From Actinomadura litoris (GTDB lineage: Bacteria > Actinomycetota > Actinomycetes > Streptosporangiales > Streptosporangiaceae), in NCBI RefSeq assembly GCF_009733595.1, contig NZ_WOFH01000016.1:62001-126000 (forward strand): a stretch of DNA of 64,000 bases, in the 5' to 3' direction. Shown in pieces: positions 1 to 20,075 of the stretch. The notes under the pieces are model-generated. The model had not been told where the DNA came from and made no database searches. It saw nothing but the letters and a program-made list of their open reading frames with translations. The position numbers were made by a program, and so were the translations under genes. Position 1 is the first letter of the stretch, and each line of letters begins with the position of its first letter.

Positions 1-1319
1 ACCGTGCCGAGCGCGATGCCCTGGAGCGGGAAGTCGTCCGTGATGTCGAGCCGCACGTCCCCGATCGCGAGGATCACCGCCGCCGCGACCGGGACGAGGT
101 TGACCGGGTCGCCGAAGTCCACCCGGTTCTCGATCCAGATCTTCGCGCCGAGCAGCCCGATCATCCCGTACAGCACGACGGTGATGCCGCCGAGCACGCC
201 GCCCGGCGTCGCCGCGACCAGCGCGCCGAACTTCGGGCACAGCCCGAACGCGATCGCGACGACCGCCGCGACGTAGTACGCGGCGGTCGAGTAGATGCGG
301 GTCGCGGCCATCACGCCGATGTTCTCGGCGTAGGTGGTGGTCGGGGAGCCGCCGAGGCCGGTGGCGAGCGCGGTCGCGGCGCCGTCGGCGGTGAGCGCGC
401 GGCCGAGGACGGGGTCGAGGTTCTCGCCGGTCATCGCCGACACGGCCTTGACGTGCCCGGTGTTCTCGGCGATCAGCGCGATGACCGGCGGCAGCGCCAG
501 CAGGATCGCGGAGGTCTTGAAGTCGGGGGCGTGCAGGTCGGGGAACCCGAACCAGTCCGCGGCGTCCACCCCGGAGAAGCTCAGCCGGTCGTGCGGGAAC
601 GCCGTCGCGACGCAGTAGGGCCCCTCGCCGCGGCACGCCTTACCGGAGGCGTCCAGCAGGTTCTGCCCGGGCAGCACGGAGGTGATCTTGCCGGCCGTCG
701 CGTCGAGGAGCCACGACAGCGCGAACCCGAACACCAGCGCCAGCAGGATGGAGATCCGCCCCCAGAACCCGCGCAGCAGCACCGTGCACAGGACGGCGAA
801 GCCCAGCGTCCCCAGCGCGACCCACTGGTCCTGCGGCCAGTAGACGGTGGCGACGACCGGCGCCAGGTTGAACCCGATCAGCATGACGACCGCGCCGGTC
901 ACCACGGGCGGGAACAGCCGGTGCACGACCTCGCCGCCGAGGACGTGCACGGTCAGCCCGACGGCGGCGAGCGCGAGGCCGGCGACGAGGATCGCGCCGG
1001 TCACGGTCGCGCTGTCGCCGCCCGCCGCGCGGATCGCCGCGACCGCGCCGACGAACGAGGCGCTGGTGCCGAGGTAGCTCGGCACCCGCCCGCCGACGAC
1101 CAGCAGGAACAGGATCGTCGCGACCCCGGACATCATGATCGACAGGTTGGGGTCCAGGCCCATCACGACGGGGAACACGAACGTCGCGCCGAACATCGCC
1201 ACGACGTGCTGCGCGCCGATCCCGGCGGTGCGGGGCCAGGTCAGCCGCTCGCCGGGACCGACGACCTCGCCCGGCGGCGGCGTCCGCCCGTCGCCGTGCA
1301 GCTTCCAGCCGATCGACAT
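1..1319 (-). CDS. Uracil/xanthine permease, NCS2 family (3' end cut by window edge)
   Basis: About 439 residues are present and the C-terminus lies beyond base 1. The frame encodes a hydrophobic multi-pass protein with the NCS2 hallmarks: QHVVAMFGATFVFP near residue 40 (first membrane helix, conserved His) and the signature AENIGVMAATR near residue 320. The family moves uracil, xanthine or uric acid across the membrane with protons; which base is carried cannot be read from sequence. A stretch with two Cys (KACRGEG, PYC) forms the usual extracytoplasmic loop of the UraA/RutG-like branch. The ATG at 1319 has a purine-rich site (gggaggg) 6-10 bases upstream. It lies downstream of pucR in the same direction but behind a hairpin, and a 12-bp palindrome sits upstream, so it probably has its own promoter. 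The PucR/AllFGH neighbours suggest a purine or ureide precursor as cargo (inference). Confidence 0.9.
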   Translation of the reverse strand, partial: MSIGWKLHGDGRTPPPGEVVGPGERLTWPRTAGIGAQHVVAMFGATFVFPVVMGLDPNLSIMMSGVATILFLLVVGGRVPSYLGTSASFVGAVAAIRAAGGDSATVTGAILVAGLALAAVGLTVHVLGGEVVHRLFPPVVTGAVVMLIGFNLAPVVATVYWPQDQWVALGTLGFAVLCTVLLRGFWGRISILLALVFGFALSWLLDATAGKITSVLPGQNLLDASGKACRGEGPYCVATAFPHDRLSFSGVDAADWFGFPDLHAPDFKTSAILLALPPVIALIAENTGHVKAVSAMTGENLDPVLGRALTADGAATALATGLGGSPTTTYAENIGVMAATRIYSTAAYYVAAVVAIAFGLCPKFGALVAATPGGVLGGITVVLYGMIGLLGAKIWIENRVDFGDPVNLVPVAAAVILAIGDVRLDITDDFPLQGIALGT

Positions 1320-1360
1320 GCGGCCCTCCCCGGCTCGTCGCCCCGCGTTCCTGCGGGCAA

Positions 1361-1372
1361 GGTAGATCTACC
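1361..1372. promoter_or_regulatory. Perfect 12-bp palindrome upstream of the permease
   Basis: GGTAGATCTACC is a perfect palindrome centred about 47 bp upstream of the permease start and between it and the hairpin behind pucR. It is placed like an operator. The binding protein is unknown; PucR is the obvious nearby candidate. Confidence 0.4.
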
Positions 1373-1432
1373 CAGGTGAGCGGGCACCGGCGACATCTGC
1401 CAAAGCCCGCGGACCGGTTTCGGAGGACCGGT

Positions 1433-1465
1433 GGCCGGGGCCGCCTTCCGTCGGCCCCGGGCCGG
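1433..1465 (-). terminator. GC-rich hairpin downstream of pucR
   Basis: GGCCGGGGCCG and CGGCCCCGGGCC can pair with one bulged base around an 8-nt loop. It lies 62 bp beyond the pucR stop, before the permease promoter region. There is no long U-tract, as is common in actinobacteria. Confidence 0.45.
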
Positions 1466-1526
1466 TGAGGGCATGCCGAGGACGGCGCGTGTCGGTGGGA
1501 TCCCGCCGCGCCGCGCGCCGCTACGC

Positions 1527-3353
1527 TCAGATGCCACGCATGCGCAGCACGTGCAGGGCGAGGGTGAGGTTGAGCCGCAGATGCGCGTCCTCGGTGAAGG
1601 CCCCGAGCATCCGCTCCAGTTTCCCGATGCGATATCGCAGCGTGTTGTAGTGGAAGTGCAGGCGGCGCGCCGTCTCGGCGACGTTCAGGTTGGTCTCCAG
1701 CAGCACCTGGAGGGTGCGCCGCAGGTCCACCAGTTCGGGCTCGTCGTCGGCGGCGAGGTCGCCCAGCGTCTCGCGGACGAACGCGTGCAGCTCCTCCGGG
1801 TCCGACACCAGGCTCAGCAGCCGGTAGACGCCGAGCTGGTCGAAGTGCGCGCGGGCGCCCGCGCCGTGCAGCTGGCGCCCGACCCGCACCGCCTTGACGG
1901 CCTGCTCGTAGGCCTCGGGCAGCTCCGCCGGGGACGTCACCGTCCGGCTGATGCCGGTCGAGAACGTCCGCCGCACCGGCAGGTGCTCGGCGAACACCGA
2001 CGACGCCTCCTTGACCATCGCCTGCACCGGACCGGTCGACAGCTCCGCCGGGTCGTCGCCGTCGGCGCCGATCACGGCCACGACCTCGTGCGCGAAGCTC
2101 GCGACCGCCGCGCCCTTGTCGTGCCGCCGGACGGCCATCGTCCACGCGGCGGCCAGCCGCTCCTGGGCGGAGCGTTCCTCGGCGCCGCGGACGCCGCGCG
2201 CCCCGCCGTCGGGCTCGGCCCCGGCGCCCATGGCGGCGCCCACGGCGGTGCCCATGGACGCGCCCGCCGCCCGGCGCCGCGCGTCGCGCGCCGCCCGGCC
2301 CTCGGGTTCGGCGCCCGGGGCGCCGCCGCGCGGGCGGCCGTCCAGCTCGGCCACGACCACCATCATCGGGCGGTCCAGGTCCCAGCCGAACCCGTCGCAG
2401 TGCGCGACGACCCGGTCGTCCTCGCCGGCGCGGCCGGCGAGGATGTCGCGCAGGAAGTCGGCGCGGTACTTGCTCTCCACCGCCGCGACGGCCTGCTGCT
2501 TGGTCACCACGAGCGCGGCCACGGTCGCGGCGCGCTCCAGGATGCCGAGGTCGGTGCCGCGCAGCGTGCCGCCCGGGCTGAAGGCGATGATGCGGCCGTG
2601 GTCGAACCCGCCCGCGACGACGGGCACGACCAGGTGGTCGGACGTGCCGTGCGCGCCGGTGATGCCGCAGCCGCCGCGTCCGCACGCGGTGTGGCGGCCC
2701 GCGTCGAACGCGCGCATCGCCTGGACGTGCTCGTCGGGGCCGGCTCCGGCCAGCACCCGCTGTTCGCCGTCCAGCACGACGACGGCGACGTCGAGCAGCG
2801 TCGCGACCTCGTCGACGACCTCCTGGAGGCCGCCGCCGCACAGCACGATCTGCACGAGCGCGCGGTGCACCTCCTCGGTGCGCGCGAGCACGGCGGCCTG
2901 CCGGTTCAGGATGTCGGTCAGTACCTGGTTGAGGATGTCGTCGAAGCCGACGTCGTTGGGGAGCAGGATCAGGGGGAAGCCGCGCCGGTCGGCCTGCGCG
3001 ATCATTTCCGCGGGGAGCGATTCCAGGTAGCGGCCCAGTTTGATGGCCAGGGCCGCGAGGCCGCGCTCGTCCAGGTCGGCGACCAGGTTGTCGAGCGACT
3101 GGGGGGTGTTGCGCAGGGGGTAGCCGGTGGTGAGGAGGAGCTCGTTCGGCTTCACCCACGACAGGATGTCGGGGACCTCCATCACGTTGAGCCGCTGCAC
3201 GATGCGTTCGAGGCCGGCACGGCCCGCGATGAGGCGCGCGCCGTTGAGGGTGCTGACGCCGAGGACCTCTCCGACGGAGAGGCCGTAGGTCAGCGTTCCG
3301 GTGCTCGCGAGCCTGAGGGCCGGTGGGCCCGGGTCCGCAGTGGTGTAACTCAT
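1527..3353 (-). CDS. pucR: PucR-family transcriptional regulator
   Basis: The product is 608 aa starting at ATG 3353, which has GAGGTGA 8-9 bases upstream; the frame stays open further 5' but without a ribosome site. Residues about 20-145 match the PucR N-terminal domain (VGEVLGVSTLNGARLIAGRAG, split by family-typical hydrophobics), the middle is the CdaR/GGDEF-like region, and residues about 540-600 are the C-terminal helix-turn-helix (NLNVAETARRLHFHYNTLRY). PucR in Bacillus activates purine catabolism genes in response to allantoin; by family and context this copy should control the divergent allH-allF-allG operon and the permease. Residues about 338-396 are an Ala/Gly/Arg-rich low-complexity insert inside the middle domain. 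Function as a regulator is well supported; the ligand is inferred. Confidence 0.88.
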   Translation of the reverse strand: MSYTTADPGPPALRLASTGTLTYGLSVGEVLGVSTLNGARLIAGRAGLERIVQRLNVMEVPDILSWVKPNELLLTTGYPLRNTPQSLDNLVADLDERGLAALAIKLGRYLESLPAEMIAQADRRGFPLILLPNDVGFDDILNQVLTDILNRQAAVLARTEEVHRALVQIVLCGGGLQEVVDEVATLLDVAVVVLDGEQRVLAGAGPDEHVQAMRAFDAGRHTACGRGGCGITGAHGTSDHLVVPVVAGGFDHGRIIAFSPGGTLRGTDLGILERAATVAALVVTKQQAVAAVESKYRADFLRDILAGRAGEDDRVVAHCDGFGWDLDRPMMVVVAELDGRPRGGAPGAEPEGRAARDARRRAAGASMGTAVGAAMGAGAEPDGGARGVRGAEERSAQERLAAAWTMAVRRHDKGAAVASFAHEVVAVIGADGDDPAELSTGPVQAMVKEASSVFAEHLPVRRTFSTGISRTVTSPAELPEAYEQAVKAVRVGRQLHGAGARAHFDQLGVYRLLSLVSDPEELHAFVRETLGDLAADDEPELVDLRRTLQVLLETNLNVAETARRLHFHYNTLRYRIGKLERMLGAFTEDAHLRLNLTLALHVLRMRGI

Positions 3354-3427
3354 GCCAGGGGTCACCTCGCCTTTTGGTGCGTACATCGCCCATTGCGGCG
3401 AGATCGCTACCAGTTCCTGATCAACCC

Positions 3428-3453
3428 TGACAACAAAGACGAACGATGACAAC
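3428..3453. promoter_or_regulatory. Direct repeat TGACAAC in the pucR/allH divergent promoter region
   Basis: The 224-bp region between the divergent starts (3354-3577) holds two copies of TGACAAC at 3428-3434 and 3447-3453, 19 bp apart, in a noticeably AT-richer patch. Spacing near two helical turns fits a dimeric activator site. PucR binding is inference. Confidence 0.35.
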
Positions 3454-3577: not shown

Positions 3578-4513
3578 GTGACTGCCCTGGTACGCGAGCC
3601 CATCCCGCTTCGGCACGGCTCCCGCCCCCAGACCGCGGGCGCCGCCAGCCTGGCGCTGCGCCCGCTGCTCGACGCGCCGCGCCGCGCGGCGCGCGTCCTC
3701 GCGGTGTTCCCGTCCGCCGTCTACCTGGAGACGCGCGGCGACCGCGAGCCCCGCGTGGTGGCCGTGGTCGGCTCCGACGCCAACCGGCTGCCGAACGCGA
3801 TGGTGGTCGGCGCGGCCCGCCGCGACCAGCCGTTCCGCTCGATCCGCGAGGGCGGGGAGGCGTGGGTCGGCGACGGCCGCGTCGAGGTCGGACCGCTGAG
3901 CGTGCGGGTCCGCCGCTGGTGGGACCCCTCGCCCGCGCTCGGCGGGATGCGCCCCGCCGAGCTGGCCCGCGGCGTCCGCGCGCTGGAGACCGCGCTCGCC
4001 GCCGCCGGGATGACCGGAGGCGGCCTCGCCGGGCACCCCGACCCCGCGCGGCTCGCCGAGTGCTGCGCGGCGGACGACCTCGCCGGCGCGGTGGAGGCCG
4101 CCGAGCGCATCGTCGGGCTCGGCCCGGGGCTCACGCCGAGCGGCGACGACATCCTGTCCGGGCTGCTGGTGACGCTGCGGCTCGTCGGCGCGGCCGTCAC
4201 CGGCGGCGGCCCCGCCGTGCGGCTGGCCGACTGGCTCGGCGCCGCCGTCACCGCCGACGCGGGCACGCGCACCACCGCGCTCGCCGCGACCCTGCTGCAC
4301 TTCGCGGCGGCGGGCGGCGCGGGCGGCGAGGTCGCGGCGGTGCTGCGCGGCGTCGCCGGGCACGAGGCGGCGGCCCCGGCCGTGCGGCGGCTGCTGGCGG
4401 TGGGCCACACCTCCGGCGCCGACCTGGCCTGGGGCGTCCTCGCGGGCTGCCGCGCCGCGCTCGCGCTCTGCGCGCCCGCGGTGGCGCGCCAGACGCGCAG
4501 GGCGTCCGCATGA
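3578..4513 (+). CDS. allH: DUF2877 protein, oxamate carbamoyltransferase subunit AllH-like
   Basis: The product is 311 aa from GTG 3578, chosen because GGGAGGA lies 4-10 bases upstream, although the frame is open from 3446. The DUF2877 hallmark GLGPGLTPSGDDILSGLL lies near residue 186, followed by a TTALAATLLHFAA stretch typical of the family. In E. coli the homologue YlbF (AllH) works with FdrA (AllF) and YlbE (AllG) as oxamate carbamoyltransferase, converting oxalurate-derived units to oxamate and carbamoyl phosphate in allantoin breakdown. It is the first gene of a three-gene operon with fdrA 43 bp downstream, divergent from pucR. The family call is firm; the activity is taken from the E. 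coli complex. Confidence 0.82.
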   Translation: MTALVREPIPLRHGSRPQTAGAASLALRPLLDAPRRAARVLAVFPSAVYLETRGDREPRVVAVVGSDANRLPNAMVVGAARRDQPFRSIREGGEAWVGDGRVEVGPLSVRVRRWWDPSPALGGMRPAELARGVRALETALAAAGMTGGGLAGHPDPARLAECCAADDLAGAVEAAERIVGLGPGLTPSGDDILSGLLVTLRLVGAAVTGGGPAVRLADWLGAAVTADAGTRTTALAATLLHFAAAGGAGGEVAAVLRGVAGHEAAAPAVRRLLAVGHTSGADLAWGVLAGCRAALALCAPAVARQTRRASA

Positions 4514-4556
4514 GCGTTCGCGCGGTCCGCCGGACGGCCGTTCGGGAGGGGCGCGG

Positions 4557-6017
4557 GTGAGCCGGTGGGTCGAGGTGCGGCCGGGCGGCTACCACGATTC
4601 GGTGACGCTGATGCGGGTGAGCCGCGCCGTGTCCGAGCGGGACGGCGTGGACGGCGCGATGGCGGCGATGGGCACCCCGCTCAACGTCGAGACGATGCGG
4701 CGGATGGGCTTCGACGTCCCGGCGGAGACGGGGCCCGGCGACCTGGTCGTCGCGATCCGCGCGCGCGACGCCGCCGCGCTGGAGGCCGCGCGGACCGCGC
4801 TGGACGGCCTGCTCGGCGAGGCGTCCCGCGTCCCCGACCGGGGCGGCCTGCTCGGCGAGGCCCCGGCGGCGCGCACGACCGCGTCGGCGGCGGCGCGCGC
4901 CGAGGCGACCGTGGCGCTGCTGTCGGTGCCGGGACCGGGCGTGTTCCCCGAGGCGATGGACGCGCTCGACGCGGGCCTCAACGTGATGATCTTCAGTGCC
5001 GGGGTGCCGCTCGCGCAGGAGATCGCGCTGAAGGAGGCGGCGGCGCGGCGCGGACTGATCGTGATGGGCCCCGACTGCGGCACCGCGGTCGTCGGCGGCG
5101 CGGGGCTCGGGTTCGCCAACGCGGTCCGGCCGGGCCCGGTGGGGATCGTCGCCGCGTCCGGGACGGGCGCGCAGCAGCTCATGTGCCTGCTGGACGCGGC
5201 GGGCACCGGCGTCAGCCACGTCCTCGGCGTCGGCGGGCGCGACCTGTCCTCGCAGGTGAGCGGGCGGTCGGCGCTCGCGGCGCTGGCGGCCCTGGACGCC
5301 GACCCCGGCACCGAGCTGATCCTGCTGGTCTCCAAACCGCCCGCGCCGCGCGTCGCGGACCTGATCCGGGAGGCGGCGCGGCGGCTCGACACGCCCGTGG
5401 TGTTCGCGCTGCCGATGCCCGGCGAGGACGACCTGACCCGCGCCGCCGAGACCGCGCTGCGCGCGCTCGGCCGCCCGGTGCCGCGCTGGCCGCGCTGGCC
5501 CGCCCGGCGGCGCCCCGCCGCGGTGGCGGGGCGGGAGCTGCGCGGCCTGTTCGCGGGCGGGACGCTGCGCGAGGAGGCCGCCGTGATCGCCCGCGCCGGG
5601 CTCGGCTGGGACCTGGAGGCGCGCGGCCACTCCCTCGTCGACTTCGGCGGCGACGCCTTCACCCGGGGCCGCGCCCACCCGATGATCGACCCGTCGCTGC
5701 GGCTGGAGGCGCTCGCCCACGCGGCGGCCGACCCGGAGGCGGGCGTGCTGCTGCTGGACGTGGTGCTCGGCTTCGGCGCCGAGCCCGACCCCGCCGCCGC
5801 GCTGGCGCCGGTGCTGGCCGCCGCGCTGAGGGACCGTTCCGATCTGGCGGCCGTGGTGTCGCTGTGCGGGACGCCCGCCGACCCGCAGGACCGCGACCGG
5901 CAGGCCGCGGCGCTGCGCGAGGCGGGCGCCGACGTGTACGCCTCCAACGCGCAGGCGGCGCGCCGCGCCGTCAAGCTGGTGGAGGCGCTGGAGCGCGCGG
6001 AAGGGGCCCCGGGATGA
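4557..6017 (+). CDS. fdrA: FdrA-family protein, oxamate carbamoyltransferase subunit AllF-like
   Basis: The product is 486 aa from GTG 4557, preceded by a gggagggg site. FdrA proteins resemble succinyl-CoA synthetase subunits: the N-terminal part holds a CoA-binding-like fold, and the characteristic MGPDCGTAVVGGAGLGFANA lies near residue 168, followed by IVAASGTGAQQ. The second half has the ligase-like GHSLVDFGGDAFTRGRAHPM motif near residue 360. At 486 aa it is shorter than the E. coli protein (about 555 aa), mainly by a compact linker near residue 320 (PRWPRWPARRRP). In E. coli the same gene is called allF, a subunit of oxamate carbamoyltransferase. It overlaps the next gene by 4 bp (ATGA), so the two are probably translated together. 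Confidence 0.85.
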   Translation: MSRWVEVRPGGYHDSVTLMRVSRAVSERDGVDGAMAAMGTPLNVETMRRMGFDVPAETGPGDLVVAIRARDAAALEAARTALDGLLGEASRVPDRGGLLGEAPAARTTASAAARAEATVALLSVPGPGVFPEAMDALDAGLNVMIFSAGVPLAQEIALKEAAARRGLIVMGPDCGTAVVGGAGLGFANAVRPGPVGIVAASGTGAQQLMCLLDAAGTGVSHVLGVGGRDLSSQVSGRSALAALAALDADPGTELILLVSKPPAPRVADLIREAARRLDTPVVFALPMPGEDDLTRAAETALRALGRPVPRWPRWPARRRPAAVAGRELRGLFAGGTLREEAAVIARAGLGWDLEARGHSLVDFGGDAFTRGRAHPMIDPSLRLEALAHAAADPEAGVLLLDVVLGFGAEPDPAAALAPVLAAALRDRSDLAAVVSLCGTPADPQDRDRQAAALREAGADVYASNAQAARRAVKLVEALERAEGAPG

Positions 6018-7438
6018 GCGGGACGAGCGGCGCGGAGCGGCACCCGCTGGGGGGCCTGCTCACGCGCGAGCCGGTGGTCGTCACCGCCGGGGTGGACGTG
6101 CTCGCGGACGCGCTGGCGGACCAGGCGGTGCGGGTCGAGCCCGTCGACTGGCGTCCGCCCCCGCCCGGGACGGACGCGGCGCTCGCCGCCGTCCTCGGCG
6201 CCCCCGGCCGCGCGGAGGCCAACGCCCGCGCGGTGGGCCGGATGGTGACCGCGCGCCCGCACCTGGTGGACGTGCGCCCCGCGCGGGAGGCGCTCGGCCT
6301 GGAGCCCGGCGCGTTCCTGCACGCGGGGCCGCCGCTGGAGTGGGAGCGCGCGTCCGGGCCGATGCGCGGCGCGCTGATCGGCGCGATGCTGCTGGAGGGG
6401 CTCGCGGAGACGCCGCTCGGCGCCGAGCGGGCGCTGGCGCGCGGCGCCGCGACGTTCGAGCCGTGCCACCACCACGGCGCGGTCGGGCCGATGGCGGGCG
6501 TGGTCAGCCCGTCCATGTGGATGCTGGTCGTGGAGGACGCCGAGCACGGCGGCAGGTCGTACTGCTCGCTGAACGAGGGCCTCGGGAAGGTCCTGCGGTA
6601 CGGGGCGTACGGGCCCGAGGTGATCGAGCGGCTCACCTGGATGGGCGAGGTGCTCGGCCCGGCCCTGCGCGCGGCGGTGCGCCGGCACGGCCCGCTGGAC
6701 CTGCTGTCGGTCATCGCGCAGGCGCTCCAGATGGGCGACGAGCTGCACAACCGCAACCGCGCGGCGACGTCGCTGCTGCTGCGCGAGCTGGCGCCCGACC
6801 TCGCCGCCGCGCCGGAGGTGCACCGCGACCGGGCGGCCGAGGCGCTGCGGTTCGCGGCGGGCAACGACCACTTCTTCCTGAACGCGGGGATGGCGGCGGC
6901 GAAGGCGGCGGCGGACGCGGCGCGCGGCGTCCCCGGCTCCAGCATGGTCGTCGCGATGGCCCGCAACGGCACCGACTTCGGCATCCAGGTGTCGGGCACG
7001 GGCGACCGCTGGTTCACCGGCCCGGCGAACGTCCCCCACGGCCTCTACCTCGGCGACCACGGCCCGGACGACGCCAACCCCGACATCGGCGACTCCGCCA
7101 TCACCGAGACCGCCGGGATGGGCGGGTTCGCGCTGGCCGCCGCGCCCGCGATCGTCCGGTTCGTCGGCGGCGAGGTGCCCGACGCGGTCGCCGCGACCCG
7201 CCGGATGTACGAGATCACGCTCGCCGAGCACCCGGCGCTCCAGATCCCGCTGCTGTCGTTCCGGGGCACCCCCGTCGGCGTGGACGTGACCCGCGTCGTC
7301 CGCACGGGGATCCTCCCGGTCATCGACACCGGGATCGCCGGACGCGAGGCCGGAACGGGCCAGGTCGGCGCGGGGCTGGTCGAGCCGCCCGCGAACGTCT
7401 TCGAGGACGCGCTGCGCGCCCTCGCCGAAACGGCCTGA
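6014..7438 (+). CDS. allG: DUF1116 protein, oxamate carbamoyltransferase subunit AllG-like
   Basis: The product is 474 aa, beginning at ATG 6014 inside the fdrA stop. DUF1116 signatures are plain: NARAVGRMVTARPHLVDV near residue 75, a conserved His pair in FEPCHHHGAVGPM near residue 152, and SLNEGLGKVLRYGAYGPEVI near residue 190. A second conserved block, VAMARNGTDFGIQVSGTG, lies near residue 315. E. coli YlbE (AllG) is the partner of FdrA and YlbF in oxamate carbamoyltransferase. All three subunits are together here in the order H-F-G. No carbamate kinase gene lies nearby, so the carbamoyl phosphate made would have to be used by the pyrimidine/arginine enzymes or a kinase elsewhere (inference). 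Confidence 0.85.
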   Translation: MSGTSGAERHPLGGLLTREPVVVTAGVDVLADALADQAVRVEPVDWRPPPPGTDAALAAVLGAPGRAEANARAVGRMVTARPHLVDVRPAREALGLEPGAFLHAGPPLEWERASGPMRGALIGAMLLEGLAETPLGAERALARGAATFEPCHHHGAVGPMAGVVSPSMWMLVVEDAEHGGRSYCSLNEGLGKVLRYGAYGPEVIERLTWMGEVLGPALRAAVRRHGPLDLLSVIAQALQMGDELHNRNRAATSLLLRELAPDLAAAPEVHRDRAAEALRFAAGNDHFFLNAGMAAAKAAADAARGVPGSSMVVAMARNGTDFGIQVSGTGDRWFTGPANVPHGLYLGDHGPDDANPDIGDSAITETAGMGGFALAAAPAIVRFVGGEVPDAVAATRRMYEITLAEHPALQIPLLSFRGTPVGVDVTRVVRTGILPVIDTGIAGREAGTGQVGAGLVEPPANVFEDALRALAETA

Positions 7439-7469: not shown

Positions 7470-8426
7470 ATGACCGAGCCGACCACCACCAGGCCGACCA
7501 CCACCGGGCCGACCACCACCGGGCCGATCACCGGTGAGCAGCACGCGCTCATCGCCGGGCCGTACCAGGCCGTCGTCACCGAGGCGGGCGCCGCCCTGCG
7601 CGAGCTGACCCACGAGGGGCGGCCGCTCGTGCTGGCCCACGGCGCCGGGGAGAACGCGCCCGCCGCGTCGGGGCAGCTGCTGGCCCCCTGGCCGAACCGG
7701 CTCGACCGCGGCCGCTACGCCTACGGCGGCGCGACCCACCGGCTCGACGTCTCCGATCCGGACCACGACTGCGCCATCCACGGGCTGGTGCGCTGGGCGC
7801 CGTGGCGGGCGGTGCTGCGGGAGCCGGACCGGGTGCGGCTCCGGCACCGGCTGCTCGGAACCGCCGGCTACCCGTTCCGCCTCGACCTGGACGTCGAGTA
7901 CGCGCTGTCGGAGGAGCGGGGGCTCACCGTCCGGCTGACCGCCTCCAACCGCGGGGACGTCACCGCCCCCTACGGGCACGGCGCGCACCCGTACCTGACC
8001 GTCGGCGTGCCGATCGACGCGTGCACGGTCACCTTCCTCGCGGACCGGTACCTGCCGGTGGGGCCGCGCAAGCTCCCCTCCGGCCCGCCGCTGGACGTCA
8101 CCGGCACCGACCGCGACCTGCGCACGGGCCCGCTCCTCGGCGACCGGCTGATCGACAACACCTTCACCGGCCTCGCCCGCGACGGCGACGGGCGCTCCAC
8201 GGTGACGCTGGCGGGCGCCGGGCGCGCGGTGGCGCTCTGGTCGGACGAGGCGCACCCGTGGACGCAGATCTACACCGCCGAGGAGGCGGCCGAGCCCCGC
8301 GCGGGCCTCGCCGTCGAGCCGATGACGTGCCCGCCGAACGCGTTCGTGTCGGGCGAGGACGTCATCGAGCTGGCGCCGGGCGCGGCCTTCACCGGCACCT
8401 GGGGGATCCACGCCGTCGCGCCCTGA
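7470..8426 (+). CDS. Aldose 1-epimerase family protein
   Basis: The product is 318 aa. It has the galactose mutarotase fold markers: an arginine in APWPNRLDRGRY near residue 75, the histidine in CAIHGLVRWAP near residue 105, a second histidine in PYGHGAHPYLT near residue 175, and the catalytic glutamate in LAVEPMTCPPNAF near residue 288. These enzymes interconvert alpha and beta anomers of sugars in the cytosol. The N-terminus carries a short Thr-rich repeat (see the repeat entry) not found in the core fold, and there is no clear Shine-Dalgarno site before ATG 7470, so the start is uncertain. The gene is 31 bp downstream of allG but its function does not obviously connect to ureide breakdown. 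Confidence 0.85.
   Translation: MTEPTTTRPTTTGPTTTGPITGEQHALIAGPYQAVVTEAGAALRELTHEGRPLVLAHGAGENAPAASGQLLAPWPNRLDRGRYAYGGATHRLDVSDPDHDCAIHGLVRWAPWRAVLREPDRVRLRHRLLGTAGYPFRLDLDVEYALSEERGLTVRLTASNRGDVTAPYGHGAHPYLTVGVPIDACTVTFLADRYLPVGPRKLPSGPPLDVTGTDRDLRTGPLLGDRLIDNTFTGLARDGDGRSTVTLAGAGRAVALWSDEAHPWTQIYTAEEAAEPRAGLAVEPMTCPPNAFVSGEDVIELAPGAAFTGTWGIHAVAP
7478..7522 (+). repeat. Three tandem 15-bp units inside the epimerase N-terminus
   Basis: Three near-identical units of the type GCCGACCACCACCGG run end to end and a partial fourth follows. They encode the repeated pentapeptide P-T-T-T-(R/G). The number of units could vary between strains. Confidence 0.8.
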
Positions 8427-8440
8427 GCGCGCGGGACGCC

Positions 8441-8887
8441 TCAGGCCAGGCGGGCGGCGACGCGCGAGAGCAGGGCGCCGAGCAGCGCCATCTCCTCCGG
8501 GCCCACGGCGTCGGCGAGCCGCGCCCACTCCGCGTCGACCGCCCCGGCGAGCGTCTCGTGCGTCTCGCGGCCGCGCGGGGTGAGGAACACCAGCACGCGG
8601 CGGCGGTCGGCGTCGTCGACCCGGCGGTGGACGAGGTTGGCCGACACCATCCGGTCGACCAGCTTGGTGAGCGTCGGCGGCGGCAGCATCGCGTGCTCGG
8701 CCACCTCCGTCATCGCGTGGCCCCGGCCGTCGGCGAGCAGCCCGAGGACGCGCCACTCGTCCAGCCCGCGCCCGCCCTCGGCGAGCACGGCGGCCAGCCG
8801 CGCCGCGACCCGGCGGTCGACGAGCGCGAGGAGCTGGGAAAAGTCCCTTTCGCTGCGTCCTGTGCTTATTGCCTCCATCGGAGGCAC
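8441..8887 (-). CDS. MarR-family repressor (AmiA-like by position)
   Basis: The product is 148 aa from GTG 8887, or 145 aa from ATG 8878; neither has a strong ribosome site. A winged helix spans residues about 45-105, with WRVLGLLADGRGHAMTEVAE leading into the recognition helix and the wing motif DDADRRRVLVFLTPRG near residue 92. It is divergent from the AmiC-like gene with only 52 bp between them. In Mycobacterium smegmatis the acetamidase genes are controlled by a MarR-like AmiA together with AmiC, and the same pairing here suggests this protein represses the amide block. The regulator family is firm; the target is inference. Confidence 0.82.
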   Translation of the reverse strand: MPPMEAISTGRSERDFSQLLALVDRRVAARLAAVLAEGGRGLDEWRVLGLLADGRGHAMTEVAEHAMLPPPTLTKLVDRMVSANLVHRRVDDADRRRVLVFLTPRGRETHETLAGAVDAEWARLADAVGPEEMALLGALLSRVAARLA

Positions 8888-8939
8888 AGGGTACCGTTCA
8901 CAGACGAATTATTCACCTCTCAACCATGCGGACCTGCCG

Positions 8940-10007
8940 ATGGTCTCGACGCCCGGCGACACGGAAACGCTCACGATCGCGCTGGTGATACCGCTGCAGG
9001 GCCCCGCGGGGATCTTCGGCCCGTCCTGCGAGCTGTGCGCGCGGCTCGCGGCCGAGGAGATCAACGGGCACCACGGCGTGCTGGGCCGCGAGGTGCGGTT
9101 CACGGTGGTCGACGGCGGCGCCGCCCCCGAGCGGGTGGCGGCGGAGGTCGACTCGCTGGTCTCCTCCGGCGCCGTCCAGGCCGTCACCGGCTGGCACATC
9201 TCGGCCGTGCGCGAGCTGGTCGCGCCGCGCGTCGCCGGGCGGGTCCCCTACGTCTACACCCCGCTCTACGAAGGCGGGGAGCGCGCCCCGTGGGTGTTCC
9301 TGACCGGCGAGACGCCGGGCCGCCAGCTCCGGCCCGCGCTGCGCTGGTTCGCCGACGAGCTGGGCGTGCGCCGCTGGGCGATCGTCGGCGACGACTACGT
9401 GTGGCCCCGGCTCACGGCCGGGGCGATCCGCGGCTACCTGGACGGCCTCGGCGGCGAGATCAGCGCGGAGTTCTTCGTCGGGCTCGGCACGCAGGACTAC
9501 GGCGAGGTGCTGGCGCGGCTGGCGCGCAGCGGCTCCGACGGGGTGCTGATGCTGCTGGTCGGCGACGACGCGGTCGCCTTCAACCGGGCGTTCGCGCGCT
9601 CGGGGCTCGACCGCGACCTGGTCCGCTTCAGCCCGCTGATGGACGAGAACATGCTGCTGGCCACCGGCGCCGACAGCACCCGCGGGCTGTTCGCGGCGGC
9701 GGGCTACTTCGAGTCGCTGCCGACCGCCGGGGGCCTGGACTTCGGCGCCCGCTACCACCGCCGCTTCGGGGCGGAGGCGCCCGTCCTCAACAGCCTGGGC
9801 GAGTCCTGCTACGAGGGCGTCCGGCTGTTCAGCGAGCTGGCGCGGCGGGCGCAGAGCGTGGACGCGCGCCGGATGCGCGCGGTCTCCGACGGGCTCGGCT
9901 ACGACGGCCCGCGCGGCGCGGTCGAGATGCGCGACCGGCACCTGCGCCAGCGGGTCTTCCTCGCCGCCGCCGACGGCCTCGACTTCGACGTCATCCACTG
10001 CCTCTGA
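8940..10007 (+). CDS. AmiC-like amide-sensing periplasmic-binding-fold protein
   Basis: The product is 355 aa from ATG 8940. It is a Peripla_BP_6 (Leu/Ile/Val-binding type) protein: TIALVIPLQGPAGIFGPSCE at the start is the first strand of lobe 1, and AAEEINGHHGVLGREVRF plus VQAVTGWHISAVREL are typical of the AmiC/UrtA/FmdD subgroup. There is no signal peptide or lipobox, so it should stay in the cytosol like AmiC, the amide sensor that controls amidase expression, rather than act as an ABC transporter receptor. No ABC permease or ATPase genes follow. The downstream neighbours are FmdB, an AmiS channel and a formamidase, which supports an amide ligand. No Shine-Dalgarno is seen, so the message may be leaderless. 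Confidence 0.78.
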   Translation: MVSTPGDTETLTIALVIPLQGPAGIFGPSCELCARLAAEEINGHHGVLGREVRFTVVDGGAAPERVAAEVDSLVSSGAVQAVTGWHISAVRELVAPRVAGRVPYVYTPLYEGGERAPWVFLTGETPGRQLRPALRWFADELGVRRWAIVGDDYVWPRLTAGAIRGYLDGLGGEISAEFFVGLGTQDYGEVLARLARSGSDGVLMLLVGDDAVAFNRAFARSGLDRDLVRFSPLMDENMLLATGADSTRGLFAAAGYFESLPTAGGLDFGARYHRRFGAEAPVLNSLGESCYEGVRLFSELARRAQSVDARRMRAVSDGLGYDGPRGAVEMRDRHLRQRVFLAAADGLDFDVIHCL

Positions 10008-10020
10008 TTCCGCCCGTCCT

Positions 10021-10036
10021 CCCCCGCCGGCGGGGG
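10021..10036 (+). terminator. GC-rich hairpin after the AmiC-like gene
   Basis: CCCCCG and CGGGGG flank a CCGG loop 13 bp after the stop codon. There is no U-tract. It may separate the sensor transcript from the fmdB-amiS-fmdA transcript. Confidence 0.45.
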
Positions 10037-10084
10037 GAATCCACCGTCTGACCTCCGCCGATCCGATTCGTCCTCGCAATCGAG

Positions 10085-10102
10085 GGCATCGGTTCCGATG
10101 CC
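10085..10102. promoter_or_regulatory. 18-bp palindrome upstream of fmdB
   Basis: Arms GGCATCGG and CCGATGCC flank two bases (TT). With a 2-nt centre it is better suited to bind a dimeric regulator than to form an RNA hairpin. It lies about 100 bp upstream of the fmdB start. Confidence 0.4.
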
Positions 10103-10147
10103 GGTTCCACGGCGCTTCCGTCCGCCGGATCCGTCATTGACAGATAC

Positions 10148-10174
10148 TTCCCCAAGAAATAGTTTCTGTGGGAA
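10148..10174. promoter_or_regulatory. 27-bp inverted repeat immediately upstream of fmdB
   Basis: TTCCCCAAGAAA and TTTCTGTGGGAA form 12-bp arms (10 of 12 bases pair) around TAG. It is AT-richer than its surroundings and ends 23 bp before the start codon, a position where a bound repressor would block transcription or initiation. It is the best candidate operator for the amide operon; the binding protein is not known. Confidence 0.5.
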
Positions 10175-10197
10175 GTAAATCGGCTGGGAGGCCCGCC

Positions 10198-10476
10198 ATG
10201 GTGACGTACCGATACCGCTGCTCCGGCTGCGGCAGCTTCGACCTCGCACTCCCGATGGGGCAGGCCGCCCCCGAGCGTCCCTGCGCGGAATGCGGCGGCG
10301 CCGCGCGGCGGGTGTTCACCGCCCCCGCCCTCGGACGCGCCGGGAGCCCGCTGTCGCGCGCCAGGGCCGCGCAGGAGGCGTCCGCGCACGAGCCCCGCGT
10401 CGTGACCCGGTCCGCGGAGCCGCGCCGCCCCGCGCCGCCGAGCGACCCCCGCCACGCCAAGCTGCCGCGGCCCTAG
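10198..10476 (+). CDS. fmdB: FmdB-family zinc-ribbon protein
   Basis: The product is 92 aa from ATG 10198, which has GGGAGG 7-12 bases upstream. The N-terminal 40 residues are a FmdB zinc ribbon: MVTYRYRCSGCGSFD supplies one CxxC and RPCAECGGAARRVF the second. The rest is a basic, Pro/Arg-rich disordered tail ending in KLPRP. FmdB was first described as a regulator candidate in the Methylophilus formamidase cluster. Here it opens the operon fmdB-amiS-fmdA with only 13 bp to the next gene. Zinc binding is a family inference. Confidence 0.85.
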   Translation: MVTYRYRCSGCGSFDLALPMGQAAPERPCAECGGAARRVFTAPALGRAGSPLSRARAAQEASAHEPRVVTRSAEPRRPAPPSDPRHAKLPRP

Positions 10477-10489
10477 CGGGGAGCCGGTC

Positions 10490-11113: not shown

Positions 11114-11198
11114 CCCGTCCACGTCCGCGACACACAGACCCAGCACCGAGACAGCAAGGCACAGCACAGCACGGCACAGCACCCAGACGGAGGCACAG

Positions 11199-12446: not shown

Positions 12447-12484
12447 CCGCGCCGTCTCCTCGAAACGGGACAGGACCCGCTCAG

Positions 12485-12520
12485 GGCGGCCCCCACGCGA
12501 TGTGGCGTGTGGGGGCCGCC
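12485..12520. terminator. Strong hairpin between fmdA and the convergent methyltransferase gene
   Basis: GGCGGCCCCCAC (12485-12496) pairs with GTGGGGGCCGCC (12509-12520), a perfect 12-bp stem with a 12-nt loop that can pair further. Lying between two convergent genes, it can serve both. Confidence 0.75.
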
Positions 12521-12566
12521 CGCCCTTTCCAGGCGGGCTCGCGGGCGTCGGGCCGACCGGCGGGCG

Positions 12567-13373: not shown

Positions 13374-13527
13374 GTACAACCCCGAAACTGAAGTGGGACC
13401 TGTTTTCGGGATCATATGCCTTCTTGATCGCTAAGCGCCCACCACCCGCCCACCGCCCGTCCGCAGATCGGCGGCCAACCGCGCCGGATCGCTTCCGCGC
13501 CGCTGCGACATGCGGGATCATGACGGG

Positions 13528-14751
13528 GTGAACCTCAGTGTCTCCTCGTTCGACGACCTGTCCGCGCGCGTCGCCGCCCTGCGCGCCCGCCACGCCGAGC
13601 GCCGTCCGGGGCCCGCCGAGGGGCGCCAGCCGGTGCACACGGTCTACGTCCCGGCCGACCGGTTCTCCCGCACGGCGCCCGCCGACTTCGGCGCCGAGGC
13701 GCTGCGGCTGCTGAACACCCACACGCCCGGCGCGGGCTCGTTCGGCGCCGCCTTCGGGATGGACCCGGAGATCGCCGGACTGGTCCGGGAGCGGGTCGCG
13801 GCGAAGCTCGCGGGCGAGCCGGTCGAGGACGTGCGGATCGACTTCGAGGACGGCTACGGCGTGCGCGGCGACGCCGAGGAGGACGCGCACGTCGAGCAGG
13901 TCGCCGAGGCCGTCGCCGCCGCCTACCAGGTCAAGAGCCTCCCCCACTACTGGGGCGTGCGGGTCAAGTCGTTCGCCGACGGCGGCCACGACCGCGCGAT
14001 GCGCACGCTCGACGGGTTCCTCACGACGCTGCGCGACCGGCTCGGGCGGCTGCCCGGCGGGTTCACCATCACCTTCCCCAAGGTGCAGAACTCCGGCCAG
14101 GTCGAGTTGTTCACCGAGTACCTGGAGCGGCTGGAGACCGCGCTCGGCCTCCCGGCGGGCATCCTGCGGTTCGAGATCCAGATCGAGACCCCCGACGCGC
14201 TCCTGGACGAGGAGGGGCGCGTCGCCCTGCTCCGCTACCCGGGCGCCGCCGCGGGCCGCCTCACCGCCGCGCACTTCGGCGTGTTCGACTACACCGCCGC
14301 GCTCGGGCTGCCCCCCGAGGAGCAGCGCCTCGACCACCCGGCCTGCGACTTCGCCCGCGACCTCATGCAGGTCGCGTTCGCGGGCACCGGCGTCCGGCTG
14401 TCGGACGGCTCGACCAACGTCATCCCCCGCAACGACGGGCCGGACGAGGTCAACGCCGCCTGGTCGGTGCACGCCGAGCACGTCAGGCACTCGCTGCGGC
14501 GCGGCTTCTACCAGGGCTGGGACCTGCACCCCGCGCACCTGCCGAGCCGGTACGCCGTCGTCTACGCCTTCCACCTGACCGGCGTCGACGACGTCATCGG
14601 GCGGGTCCGGGCCTGGCACGACCAGGCGGCGGGCCGCGCCGGGGTGCTGGACGAGCCCGCGACCATCACCGCGCTCGTCGGCCGGCTGCGCCGCGCCGTC
14701 GACTGCGGCGCGCTGGACGAGAGCGCGCTGCCCGCGTCCGAGGTCTCCTGA
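13528..14751 (+). CDS. DUF6986 aldolase-like (HpcH/HpaI-related) protein
   Basis: The product is 407 aa from GTG 13528 (ATG 13510 in the same frame would add six residues). The fold looks like the HpcH/HpaI and CitE TIM barrel: DVRIDFEDGYGVRGDAEEDA near residue 110 supplies the acidic pair, FTITFPKVQNSGQVELF near residue 180 the conserved Lys, and RFEIQIETPDALLD near residue 217 the metal-binding Glu. I recall this family sitting near malate synthase or allantoicase genes in other actinomycetes, which would suit the ureide theme of the left end, but no such genes are next to it here. The reaction is unknown. Confidence 0.7.
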   Translation: MNLSVSSFDDLSARVAALRARHAERRPGPAEGRQPVHTVYVPADRFSRTAPADFGAEALRLLNTHTPGAGSFGAAFGMDPEIAGLVRERVAAKLAGEPVEDVRIDFEDGYGVRGDAEEDAHVEQVAEAVAAAYQVKSLPHYWGVRVKSFADGGHDRAMRTLDGFLTTLRDRLGRLPGGFTITFPKVQNSGQVELFTEYLERLETALGLPAGILRFEIQIETPDALLDEEGRVALLRYPGAAAGRLTAAHFGVFDYTAALGLPPEEQRLDHPACDFARDLMQVAFAGTGVRLSDGSTNVIPRNDGPDEVNAAWSVHAEHVRHSLRRGFYQGWDLHPAHLPSRYAVVYAFHLTGVDDVIGRVRAWHDQAAGRAGVLDEPATITALVGRLRRAVDCGALDESALPASEVS

Positions 14752-16251: not shown

Positions 16252-16872
16252 TCAGCCGAGGCCCGCGTCGAGGAGCGCGGCGAGGTCCTCGGGGGTGTCG
16301 ATGTCGTCCGGGGCGGCGACGTCGTCGCACGGGACGGGCGTGACGAGGTCCGGGTGGGCGCGCAGGTAGCCGCGCGCGCCCCGGTCGCCGGACGCCGCGT
16401 CCGACGCGCCCGCGAAGTGCTCGGCCCGCAGCAGGACGGGGTTGCGCCACGCGCCGCCGTAGGTCGCCACGGCGATCCCCGCGCCCGCCTCGTACGCCCC
16501 GACCAGCCGCGCGACGGCCGCCGCGGTGACCAGCGGCTGGTCGACGAGCGCGACGGCGGCGGCGGGGCAGCCGGGCGGCAGCGCGGCGAGCCCGGCGCGC
16601 AGCGAGGAGCCCATGCCCTCCCGCCAGCGCGGGTTCGGGACGACCACCGCGCCGATCACCTCGACCTGCGCGGCGCCGGTCACCACGAGGACCGGCGAGC
16701 AGCCCGCGTCCCGCAGCGTCCGCACGCCCCGGTCGACCAGGCGCTCGCCGCGCAGCTCCAGCAGCGCCTTCGGACGGCCGAACCGGCGGCCCTCCCCCGC
16801 CGCGAGCAGCAGCCCCGCCGGGGGCTCGTCCTTCGGGAAGACACCGCGTGAGTTGGCGCCGTGCAGGGTCAT
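16252..16872 (-). CDS. MobA/MocA-like nucleotidyltransferase
   Basis: The product is 206 aa from ATG 16872 (GTG 16875 is directly before it). The N-terminus holds the NTP-transferase signature LLLAAGEGRRFGRPKALLEL near residue 25, later RWREGMGSSLRAGL and VALVDQPLVTAAAV, which are the MocA/NboR-type blocks. MocA attaches CMP to molybdopterin to give the MCD cofactor used by xanthine dehydrogenase- and CO dehydrogenase-type enzymes. It is the last gene of the CoxD-CoxE-XdhC-MocA operon, 18 bp after the xdhC stop, which supports a MocA role over MobA. Confidence 0.8.
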   Translation of the reverse strand: MTLHGANSRGVFPKDEPPAGLLLAAGEGRRFGRPKALLELRGERLVDRGVRTLRDAGCSPVLVVTGAAQVEVIGAVVVPNPRWREGMGSSLRAGLAALPPGCPAAAVALVDQPLVTAAAVARLVGAYEAGAGIAVATYGGAWRNPVLLRAEHFAGASDAASGDRGARGYLRAHPDLVTPVPCDDVAAPDDIDTPEDLAALLDAGLG

Positions 16873-16890
16873 CACGCGAGGGTAGCCCGC

Positions 16891-18015
16891 TCACCCCTGC
16901 GCGGCGTGGATCCTGCCGCCGGTGTCGGTGAGCGGTCGCCCCGAGCCGCCCCAGCGGAGCTGGACGAGTTCGGCGGCGATCGACACCGCCGTCTCCTCGG
17001 GCGTGCGGGCGCCGAGGTCGAGGCCGATCGGCGAGCGCAGCCGGGCCAGCTCCCGGGGGGTCAGGCCCGCCTCGCGCAGCCGCGCCAGCCGGTCGTCGTG
17101 GGTGCGGCGCGACCCCATCGCGCCGACGTACCCGGCGCCGGTGCGCAGCGCCACCTCCAGCAGCGGCACGTCGAACTTCGGGTCGTGGGTGAGGACGCAG
17201 ACGGCGGTCCGCTCGTCGACCAGGTCCCGCGACTCCTCCAGGAACTTGTGCGGCCACTTCACCACGACCTCGTCGGCGTCGGGGAAGCGCTTGGGCGTCG
17301 CGAAGACGGGCCGCGCGTCGCACACCGTCACGTGGTAGCCGAGGAACTTGCCGATCCGCGCGACCGCCGCCGCGAAGTCGATCGCGCCGAACACCAGCAG
17401 GCGCGGCGGCGGCGCGAAGGAGTGCACGAACACGGTCAGGTCGTCCAGCCGCCGCTCGCCCTCGCGGCCGTAGTGCCGCGAGCCGGTGAGGCCCTGGGCG
17501 AGCATGCCGCGCGCGTCGTCGTCGACCGCCGCGTCCAGCCGGGCGGCGTGCGGCTCGCCGGGCGCGAGCGAACCGGACGCGCGGTCGCGCCAGACGACGC
17601 GCCGCGCCCCGAGCCGCCCGGGACCGCCGACGACGGTCGCGACCGCGACCGGCTCGCGGGCCCGCATCGCCTCGGCCACCTCGGCGAACTCCGGGAACGT
17701 CGCGGGGCCGACCGGCTCCACCAGCACGTCCAGGATGCCGCCGCAGGTCAGCCCGACCGCGAACGCGTCGTCGTCGCTGACCCCGTAGCGCCGCACGACG
17801 GGCTCGCCGCTCGCGATCACGCTCCGCGCCAGCTCGTACACCGCGCCCTCGACGCAGCCGCCGGACACGCTGCCCGCGACCTCCCCGCCCGCCGACACGG
17901 CCATCGCCGCCCCCGCCGGACGCGGCGCGCTGCGGAAGGTGTGCACGACCGTCGCCAGCCCGAACGTCTCCCCCGACGCGTACCACCCGGCGATGTCGTC
18001 CAGCACGTCACGCAA
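16891..18015 (-). CDS. XdhC/CoxF-family molybdenum cofactor maturation protein
   Basis: The product is 374 aa. TTG 18015 is preferred as start because GAGGAG lies seven bases upstream and the gene then overlaps coxE by 8 bp; a GTG at 18036 would add seven residues. The N-terminal XdhC_CoxI domain has ATVVHTFRSAPRPAGAAMAV and SGSVSGGCVEGAVYELA (conserved Cys) near residue 50, and a second CGG motif in GLTCGGILDVLVEP near residue 90. The C-terminal Rossmann half has LLVFGAIDFAAAVARIG and YVGAMGSRRTHDDR. XdhC inserts or protects the sulfurated Mo cofactor before delivery to the apo-hydroxylase. Confidence 0.87.
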   Translation of the reverse strand: MRDVLDDIAGWYASGETFGLATVVHTFRSAPRPAGAAMAVSAGGEVAGSVSGGCVEGAVYELARSVIASGEPVVRRYGVSDDDAFAVGLTCGGILDVLVEPVGPATFPEFAEVAEAMRAREPVAVATVVGGPGRLGARRVVWRDRASGSLAPGEPHAARLDAAVDDDARGMLAQGLTGSRHYGREGERRLDDLTVFVHSFAPPPRLLVFGAIDFAAAVARIGKFLGYHVTVCDARPVFATPKRFPDADEVVVKWPHKFLEESRDLVDERTAVCVLTHDPKFDVPLLEVALRTGAGYVGAMGSRRTHDDRLARLREAGLTPRELARLRSPIGLDLGARTPEETAVSIAAELVQLRWGGSGRPLTDTGGRIHAAQG

Positions 18016-19148
18016 GGCCCGTCTCCTCTCTCCCACCGGCTTCCCTCCGGGCGGCCCCGTTCGCGCCGCCCGCGATCAGCCGGGCCAAGTGCTCCAGCGC
18101 CGCGAGGCTGTGGCCGGAGGTGAAGTCGTCGACGTGCGGCAGCGCCGCCGCCATCCCGGCCGTCAGCGGCTCGTACCCGGGGCGCGCCTTGTGCGGGTTC
18201 GCCCACACGACCCGGTGCGCGAGCCGCCGCAGCCGCGCCATCTGGTCGCCGAGGAGGGCGGCGTCGCCGCGCTCCCAGCCGTCGGAGGCGATCACGACGA
18301 CGGCGCCCCGGGCGAGGCCGCGCTGCCCGAACCGGTCGAGGAACTCCTTCAGCTCCTCGCCGAGGCGGGTGCCGCCGCTCCAGTCCGGGATGGCGGCCGA
18401 CGCCGCCGCCATCGCCGTGTCGGGGTCGCGGTGCCGCAGGTCGCGGGTGAGGCGGGTGAGGCGCGTCCCGGCGCTGAAGACCTCCACGGCGGCGCCGCCC
18501 GAGCGCGCGGCGGCGTGCGCGAACCGCAGCAGCGCGTCGGCGTAGGGGCTCATCGACCCGCTGACGTCCACGATCAGCACGACGCGGCGCGGGCGGGTCC
18601 GGTGCGCGCGGTGCCGGAGCAGGGCCGTCTCGCCGCCGCGCCTCAGCGTCTCCCGGATCGTCCGGCCGGGGTCGAGGCGTCCGGCGGGCGCGGGGGCGAA
18701 CCGGCGCGACCTGCGCGGCTCGGCGCCCGCCTCCAGCAGCGCGATGAGCCGGGCGACCTCGGCGCGCTCGGCCGCGGTCAGCCGCGCCACGTCCCGGTCG
18801 CGCAGCACCTCGGCGCCGCTCGCGGCCGACGCCTCGGGCTCACCCGCGCGCTCCCCGGCTCCGGCGCCGTCCAGGACGGGACGCGCCGCGCGCCGCACCG
18901 CGACCGGCGGCGGCCTGCGCCCCGGACGGGCCGTCGCGCCGGAGAAGTACGCGGCGAAGCAGCGGTCGTAGCGGGCGAGGTCGGCGGGGTCGGCGCACAG
19001 CGTCAGCCGCCCCGCCCAGTACACCTGCGACGGGTCCAGGACGTCGAGGTGGCCGAGCGCCGCGAGCATCGCCTGGACGCGCTCGGGCCCCGCGCCGCCG
19101 CCCGCCGCGCGCACCGTCCGGGCGAACCCGACCATCGTCTCGGTGACG

Positions 19149-19156
<8 letters not shown>
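18008..19156 (-). CDS. CoxE-like von Willebrand A domain protein
   Basis: The product is 382 aa. The second half is a VWA (CoxE) domain whose MIDAS starts with DVSGSMS at residues 197-203, with later TRLGEELKEFLDRFG and VVIASDGWERGD. The first 180 residues are Ala/Arg-rich and predicted helical. CoxE proteins pair with a MoxR-type AAA ATPase (CoxD) to mature the CO dehydrogenase active site. The gene overlaps coxD by 8 bp upstream and xdhC by 8 bp downstream, so the three are translationally coupled. Confidence 0.87.

Positions 19157-20075
<919 letters not shown>

Follow-up and report, generated by a model that had tools for sequence, protein, structure and literature searches.

An AllH-AllF-AllG operon in Actinomadura litoris probably encodes a ureidomalonate carbamoyltransferase of oxidative pyrimidine catabolism

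We analysed a window of 64,000 nucleotides from the 9.16 Mb draft genome of Actinomadura litoris (G000:C8:62001-126000, contig NZ_WOFH01000016.1), in which three adjacent genes encode homologues of the AllH, AllF and AllG subunits of E. coli AllFGH. We consider it probable that the product of this operon is a three-subunit enzyme of the AllFGH kind that acts in oxidative pyrimidine catabolism as a ureidomalonate:phosphate carbamoyltransferase; the ureidomalonate activity is predicted from sequence. An initial annotation had assigned the genes to oxamate and allantoin metabolism, with the reservation that the substrate might differ. The reservation was right and the assignment probably wrong: the allantoin genes AllB and AllD gave no match within up to 10 kb on either side in 80 of 80 named orthologous loci, our AllG does not group with the E. 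coli/AllD sequences, and the gene whose distribution tracks AllG is that of barbiturase.

Oxalurate and ureidomalonate are both acylureas, one CH2 apart. In the pathway that we infer for this strain, uracil would be imported by an NCS2 nucleobase permease and oxidised to barbiturate by a CoxMSL-type molybdenum (Mo) hydroxylase, and the ring of barbiturate would be opened by barbiturase to give ureidomalonate (3-oxo-3-ureidopropanoate). AllHFG would act in the direction of phosphorolysis, splitting ureidomalonate with phosphate so that malonamate and carbamoyl phosphate are formed in place of malonate and urea. Carbamate kinase, normally encoded beside barbiturase, would yield ATP from the carbamoyl phosphate, malonamate would be deamidated, and the malonate would then be activated to malonyl-CoA; the PucR-type regulator would have its role in this pathway. 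Soong et al., as cited in PMC3758960, reportedly described an oxidative route for pyrimidines in which barbiturase and ureidomalonase act, and Rhodococcus erythropolis is the classical barbiturase organism. The genes of A. litoris agree with the classical pathway in that barbiturase is present and linked and ureidomalonate would be made by the pathway. They would depart from it in that phosphorolysis to carbamoyl phosphate and malonamate replaces hydrolysis to malonate and urea; the classical route, as given in the accessible part of its source, runs from barbiturate through ureidomalonate to malonic acid and urea by way of ureidomalonase (PMC3758960).

The gene families and the operon itself are directly observed, as are the conserved linkage, the co-occurrence and the AllG clade described below. 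The presence of all three subunits, as the initial annotation had stated, was borne out by family models and by comparison with E. coli K-12 (39% identity for AllF, 50% for AllG and 34% for AllH, the last over 143 C-terminal residues only), so that at family level the complete AllF, AllG and AllH complement of an AllFGH carbamoyltransferase is found. AllF scored 396 bits with the FdrA model NF004760, under its curated cut-off of 433, and its best solved relative was 3dmy, named protein fdrA; the closest AllG was that of Actinomadura terrae OS3-83 (96%). The three genes form a tight, coupled operon divergent from the PucR gene, with 43 bp between AllH and AllF and an ATGA overlap between AllF and AllG. 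Although the AllH reading frame is open from an ATG at 3446, the GTG at 3578 is the likelier start because GGAGG directly precedes it. The coupling, this start, the PucR regulator and the nucleobase permease all stand as first annotated (Table 1).

We defined the AllG type of the operon as proteins scoring at least 280 bits, a line set after the scores had been seen to drop from 288 to 247 bits. In a set of 40 genomes, comprising our own and its relatives, 38 are concordant for barbiturase and this AllG type (23 with both, 15 with neither); one genome has barbiturase only (G026) and one AllG only (G030). In an even sample of 396 genomes across the phylum, the PF09663 family of barbiturase occurs in 27, the AllG type in 32 (any AllG in 49) and both in 22, our own included (Fisher p = 7e-24, uncorrected for kinship), leaving five with the barbiturase family only and ten with AllG only. 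The family member was compared with our barbiturase in 21 of the 22 genomes with both (G363 left out), and apart from our own at 100% the identities were 66-74%; in four of the five genomes without this AllG (G229 left out) they were 40-44%. PF09663 was likewise found in 33 of 33 genomes picked from the 80 named AllG loci.

A tree of 65 AllG sequences, labelled by genome rather than by linkage, gave a concordant picture. The 47 AllG proteins from barbiturase genomes form one clade (support 97/95), with a single origin in 98% of 200 bootstrap trees; kinship contributes to this clustering, yet the other AllG types include actinobacteria too. E. coli AllG forms a separate clade (100/100) with two actinobacterial rows from AllD-bearing loci (L178 and L179), and our AllG lies outside it. 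The AllG types found with cysteine hydrolases and cyanuric acid hydrolases make a third set, shared with E. coli YahG, and the types accompanied by HyuAB or by a permease only neighbour the barbiturase clade with weak support (84/64). Residues that split the barbiturase clade from three AllD-type rows include H286, N284, N246 and G443. The L178 and L179 loci, in which AllF and AllG are close to those of E. coli and are accompanied by AllD (55% identical to E. coli AllD) and a kinase, are probably true oxalurate clusters within the phylum.

Linkage of barbiturase to the AllG type is also conserved. In the 22 phylum genomes with both, the two genes lie within 10 kb of each other in 13, share a contig at a distance of 17 to 43 kb in four and are on different contigs in five; in our genome, one of the four, 27 kb separate the AllG domain from barbiturase. 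For the 14 compact loci (L147-L160) the typical order is barbiturase, permease, kinase, AllH, AllF, AllG, CoxM, CoxS and CoxL. The kinase adjoins AllH in 12 of these (the exceptions being L152 and L155), an NCS2 permease 26-30% identical to ours is present in 11, at least part of CoxMSL in ten (with a distant match, 30-46%, in L152), PucR in ten and a cytosine-deaminase-like gene in three. Barbiturase, kinase, permease, PucR and AllHFG are similarly united in second clusters of two relatives (G007 and G019) and in a 41 kb stretch of Embleya sp. NBC_00888, which add a fused acetyl-CoA-carboxylase-like carboxyltransferase, a class III CoA-transferase, a nitrilase-superfamily amidase and a cytosine deaminase; this gene set would make a plausible route from cytosine and uracil to malonyl-CoA and beyond.

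The ring-opening enzyme of A. litoris, a PF09663 amidohydrolase encoded on the contig of the operon 23.7 kb before the AllH start, is clearly a linked barbiturase by sequence comparison. It matched a solved chain named Barbiturase (5hwe) at 571 bits and solved cyanuric acid hydrolases at no more than 317 bits. Cyanuric acid as its substrate would be allowed by the NCBIfam cyanuric acid hydrolase model, which it also passes (469 bits, cut-off 360) and which does not separate the two activities; the closest solved sequences disfavour that substrate. Where cyanuric acid hydrolases have the Arg of SRGASALG, our protein has Asn, a residue shared at this aligned position by 40-42% identical relatives (L165, L166) and hence not a full test. 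The passages available of one study place a glutamine at Arg188 in the barbiturase subgroup (PMC4051656), which may or may not equal the aligned position that holds Asn here.

The allantoin genes show a different distribution. We searched up to 10 kb on each flank of the 80 named orthologous loci, 19 of which have shortened flanks, and matched PucR at 68 of them, the permease at 64 and CoxL at 62; E. coli AllB and AllD gave no match in any of the 80 (tblastn E <= 1e-10), and AllC and AllE references were also unmatched there. An oxamic transcarbamylase as in E. coli, converting oxalurate and phosphate to oxamate and carbamoyl phosphate with the other allantoin steps encoded elsewhere, would fit the homology of the three subunits to E. 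coli AllFGH, to which the available passages of PMC11326118 ascribe that activity. Our genome also carries, on another contig, an allantoinase above its model's cut-off beside Mo hydroxylase genes, and one gene of PF02615, the family of AllD (ureidoglycolate dehydrogenase). Given the allantoinase, a ureide pathway without linkage to the operon may exist. The PF02615 protein shares only 35% identity with E. coli AllD, against 55% in the two loci whose AllG groups with that of E. coli, and the family is absent from ten of the 23 genomes with both the AllG type and barbiturase. Within the 40-genome set, barbiturase tracks this AllG better (23/23 vs 1/17) than allantoinase does (20/23 vs 8/17). 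Allantoin or oxalurate as the principal assignment was therefore rejected on the neighbourhood, the AllG tree and the distribution of AllD and allantoinase, and we regard the oxamic transcarbamylase explanation as quite unlikely.

Several observations nonetheless weigh against ureidomalonate phosphorolysis. The excess of allantoinase just given is one of them. Neither barbiturase nor a kinase lies within 10 kb of AllG in any of the 80 named loci, and ten phylum genomes have a high-scoring AllG and no barbiturase; their AllG genes are of the AllD, cysteine-hydrolase, HyuAB and permease-only types. Conversely, G026 has barbiturase and a kinase without an AllG match. A close malonamate amidase was not found in our own genome, where the best match to the clustered nitrilase-type amidase was 33% identical; HyuAB is a candidate for this step. 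Our genome and five relatives have no carbamate kinase beside barbiturase, and the compact clusters of G341 and G316 have no kinase match. The classical ureidomalonase gives malonate and urea, and a hydrolase could therefore do the third step. G218 has CoxMSL, a 41% identical barbiturase relative and an acyl-CoA synthetase with no AllG, so a similar gene set can do without AllG, perhaps as a hydrolytic version. Such a set without AllG, at L165:5174-13056, may represent an oxidative route whose third step is hydrolytic. Among the matches listed by a literature search, from which subscription papers were mostly absent, no paper tied barbiturase to AllFGH.

If a separate ureidomalonase hydrolysed ureidomalonate, the operon could still belong to the pyrimidine cluster, with AllHFG acting on another acylurea or carbamoyl amide from this or an adjoining pathway, such as biuret or a HyuAB product. 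AllF and AllG do accompany CoxMSL and HyuAB without barbiturase in three genomes, and in other clades they occur with a cysteine hydrolase or with cyanuric acid hydrolase; in A. litoris HyuAB is flanked by barbiturase on one side and the Mo hydroxylase on the other. The one-to-one correspondence with barbiturase and the compact order barbiturase, kinase, AllHFG nevertheless make ureidomalonate the plainest acylurea made by the neighbours, and we judge such a division of labour unlikely.

The kinase bears on the fate of carbamoyl phosphate. That no carbamate kinase adjoins the operon, as first annotated, was confirmed by a genome search, which found none on contig C8; the two full-length matches of the genome are on contigs C31 and C35, in the company of arginine deiminase and ornithine carbamoyltransferase genes. 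A kinase elsewhere in our cluster was not found, and the neighbour of barbiturase proved to be an aminotransferase gene. In relatives, 17 of 22 barbiturase loci have a carbamate kinase near by (our genome and A. terrae being outside this count); it is absent in G002, G010, G013 and G014, as in our genome and A. terrae, and the contig of G034 ends too soon. A non-catabolic complex, running toward carbamoylation or supplying carbamoyl phosphate for arginine and pyrimidine synthesis, would explain the missing kinase in these six genomes and would suit the arginine-deiminase and ornithine-carbamoyltransferase settings of our two kinases. Kinase loss is, however, limited to one lineage, the remote kinases could serve, and the ancestral use looks catabolic, since most relatives keep a kinase in the cluster; a non-catabolic role therefore appears very improbable. 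If A. litoris phosphorolyses ureidomalonate, the resulting carbamoyl phosphate might be used by the two remote kinases or enter biosynthesis.

Table 1. Genes of the AllH-AllF-AllG operon and its surroundings (unprefixed positions are those of the window)
Feature	Position	Strand	Family evidence	Remarks
AllH-type subunit (DUF2877)	3578..4513	+	PF11392 E 3.7e-22	
AllF-type subunit (FdrA)	4557..6017	+	PF00549	39% to E. coli AllF
AllG-type subunit (DUF1116)	6014..7438	+	PF06545 328 bits	50% to E. coli AllG
PucR-type regulator, divergent	1527..3452	-	PF07905, PF17853 (GGDEF_2), PF13556 (HTH_30)	
NCS2 nucleobase permease	1..1319; whole gene L002:13868-15319	-	PF00860 245 bits	3' end before base 1
Aldose-epimerase-like gene	7470..8426	+	PF01263	after AllG; matched in 10/80 named loci
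DUF6986 gene	13510..14751	+	PF22484	matched in 14/80 named loci
MobA-like, XdhC/CoxI, CoxE, CoxD-like AAA genes	16252..20075	-	PF12804, PF13478/PF02625, PF05762, PF07728	
Mo hydroxylase (CoxMSL)	L002:9817-12474 (CoxL), 12475-12987, about 12981-13870	-		before window base 1
HyuA / HyuB	L002:2751-4823 / 874-2754			before window base 1
Barbiturase	L003:10735-11841 = C8:40735-41841	-		before window base 1

The Mo hydroxylase, HyuA/HyuB and barbiturase belong to one unit with the operon. Outward from base 1, the minus strand encodes the remainder of the NCS2 permease, then the Mo hydroxylase, with its FAD subunit first, its [2Fe-2S] subunit second and its large subunit third, and after it HyuA/HyuB. 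The best NCBIfam model for the permease was RutG (364 bits, under its cut-off of 759). CoxL scored 1480 bits with the NCBI model for aerobic CO dehydrogenase group 5 and carries the motif PYRGAGR, with no CSFR. In the passages available of PMC7248562, the form II motif is AYRGAGR and CO oxidation by form II is without firm evidence. Our enzyme thus resembles form II CO dehydrogenase in this motif, in its three subunits and in the Cox maturation genes, and differs in its linkage to barbiturase and a nucleobase permease and in its proposed substrate, uracil rather than CO. This CoxL group, linked to barbiturase across the phylum, bears a CO dehydrogenase annotation and is a candidate uracil dehydrogenase. 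The MobA-like, XdhC/CoxI, CoxE and CoxD-like genes, retained near the operon within the genus, are probably its maturation set.

Barbiturase is adjoined (27 bp) by the aminotransferase gene, and the order in A. terrae is identical. Between barbiturase and the AllH operon lies an AMP-binding gene, 84% identical over the compared part to a relative's protein whose best NCBIfam model was acyl-CoA synthetase (727 bits, above cut-off), against 333 bits, below cut-off, for malonyl-CoA synthase. On the other side of the operon, the DUF6986 gene is its usual 3' neighbour in Actinomadura and weakly resembles malyl-CoA lyase. Between the two, positions 8580-12446 encode a UrtA-like binding protein, FmdB, an AmiS/UreI channel and the formamidase FmdA (666 bits, above cut-off). 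This block is also found in A. terrae (L304), G007 (L041) and G019 (L038) and was absent from all other relatives' loci that were covered with both flanks; it reads as a lineage-specific insertion, with a predicted function in amide uptake.

Relative to E. coli oxamic transcarbamylase AllFGH (FdrA-YlbE-YlbF), the actinobacterial system has three homologous subunits in one operon, a kinase partner in most relatives and the same expected chemistry (acylurea + phosphate = amide + carbamoyl phosphate). It differs in its AllG clade, in sequence (34-50% identity), in the lack of a local kinase in A. litoris, in a substrate probably one carbon longer and in having barbiturase, Mo hydroxylase, NCS2 permease and PucR as neighbours instead of all genes. 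The E. coli reaction, oxamate + carbamoyl phosphate <-> oxalurate + phosphate, is reversible, and carbamoyl transfer with all three subunits required is known for E. coli only, according to the part of PMC11326118 available to us. Elsewhere, as far as the accessible passages go, these E. coli genes were predicted as oxamate carbamoyltransferase candidates (PMC3364942), and an unrelated ureidoglycine carbamoyltransferase was proposed (PMC4016543). Ammonia oxidisers (nitrifiers) carry allFGHK near biuH and codB (PMC12625717); in the passages available, AllFGH there lies near pyrimidine or ureide genes without upstream allantoin genes, as in A. litoris. Those clusters also include a kinase, their authors assign oxalurate as the substrate, and no barbiturase is named in these passages.

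More broadly, AllFGH enzymes may be general acylurea:phosphate carbamoyltransferases that form an amide and carbamoyl phosphate from ring-opened nucleobases or triazines and so release ring nitrogen with a gain of ATP. They would act on oxalurate in the AllD clade and on ureidomalonate in the barbiturase clade, while the clades with cyanuric acid hydrolase or cysteine hydrolase would use biuret or carboxybiuret; actinobacteria would then possess an ATP-saving uracil pathway whose first enzyme, a 'form II CO dehydrogenase', is a uracil dehydrogenase. On this wider proposal we are evenly divided. If ureidomalonate phosphorolysis by the operon holds, the steps of oxidative pyrimidine breakdown about which least is known would gain genes, the pathway could conserve energy as carbamoyl phosphate rather than lose urea, and a group of form II 'CO dehydrogenases' would gain a testable substrate. 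AllFGH genes, which carry the Pfam name oxamate carbamoyltransferase, would by themselves be no proof of allantoin use.

Other ring-opening enzymes accompany AllF and AllG outside the barbiturase clade. Aminobacter and Serratia plasmids (L065:8340-13433 and L189:8909-16550) combine AllF, AllG and carbamate kinase with cyanuric acid hydrolases; those of Serratia and Aminobacter score 582 and 810 bits against solved enzymes of this kind and 327 against barbiturase; the Serratia cluster additionally has an NCS2 permease and AllH side by side. This arrangement looks like a mobile triazine-nitrogen module. AllF and AllG accompany a cysteine hydrolase on an E. coli plasmid, and the plasmid pairings together suggest one chemistry on several acylureas. 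Runs of CoxMSL, HyuA, HyuB, AllF and AllG without barbiturase occur at L174, L176 and L177, where HyuAB may open another ring. Among the matches listed, similar ring-opening hydrolases were present on many enterobacterial plasmids and DUF1116 on many E. coli plasmids.

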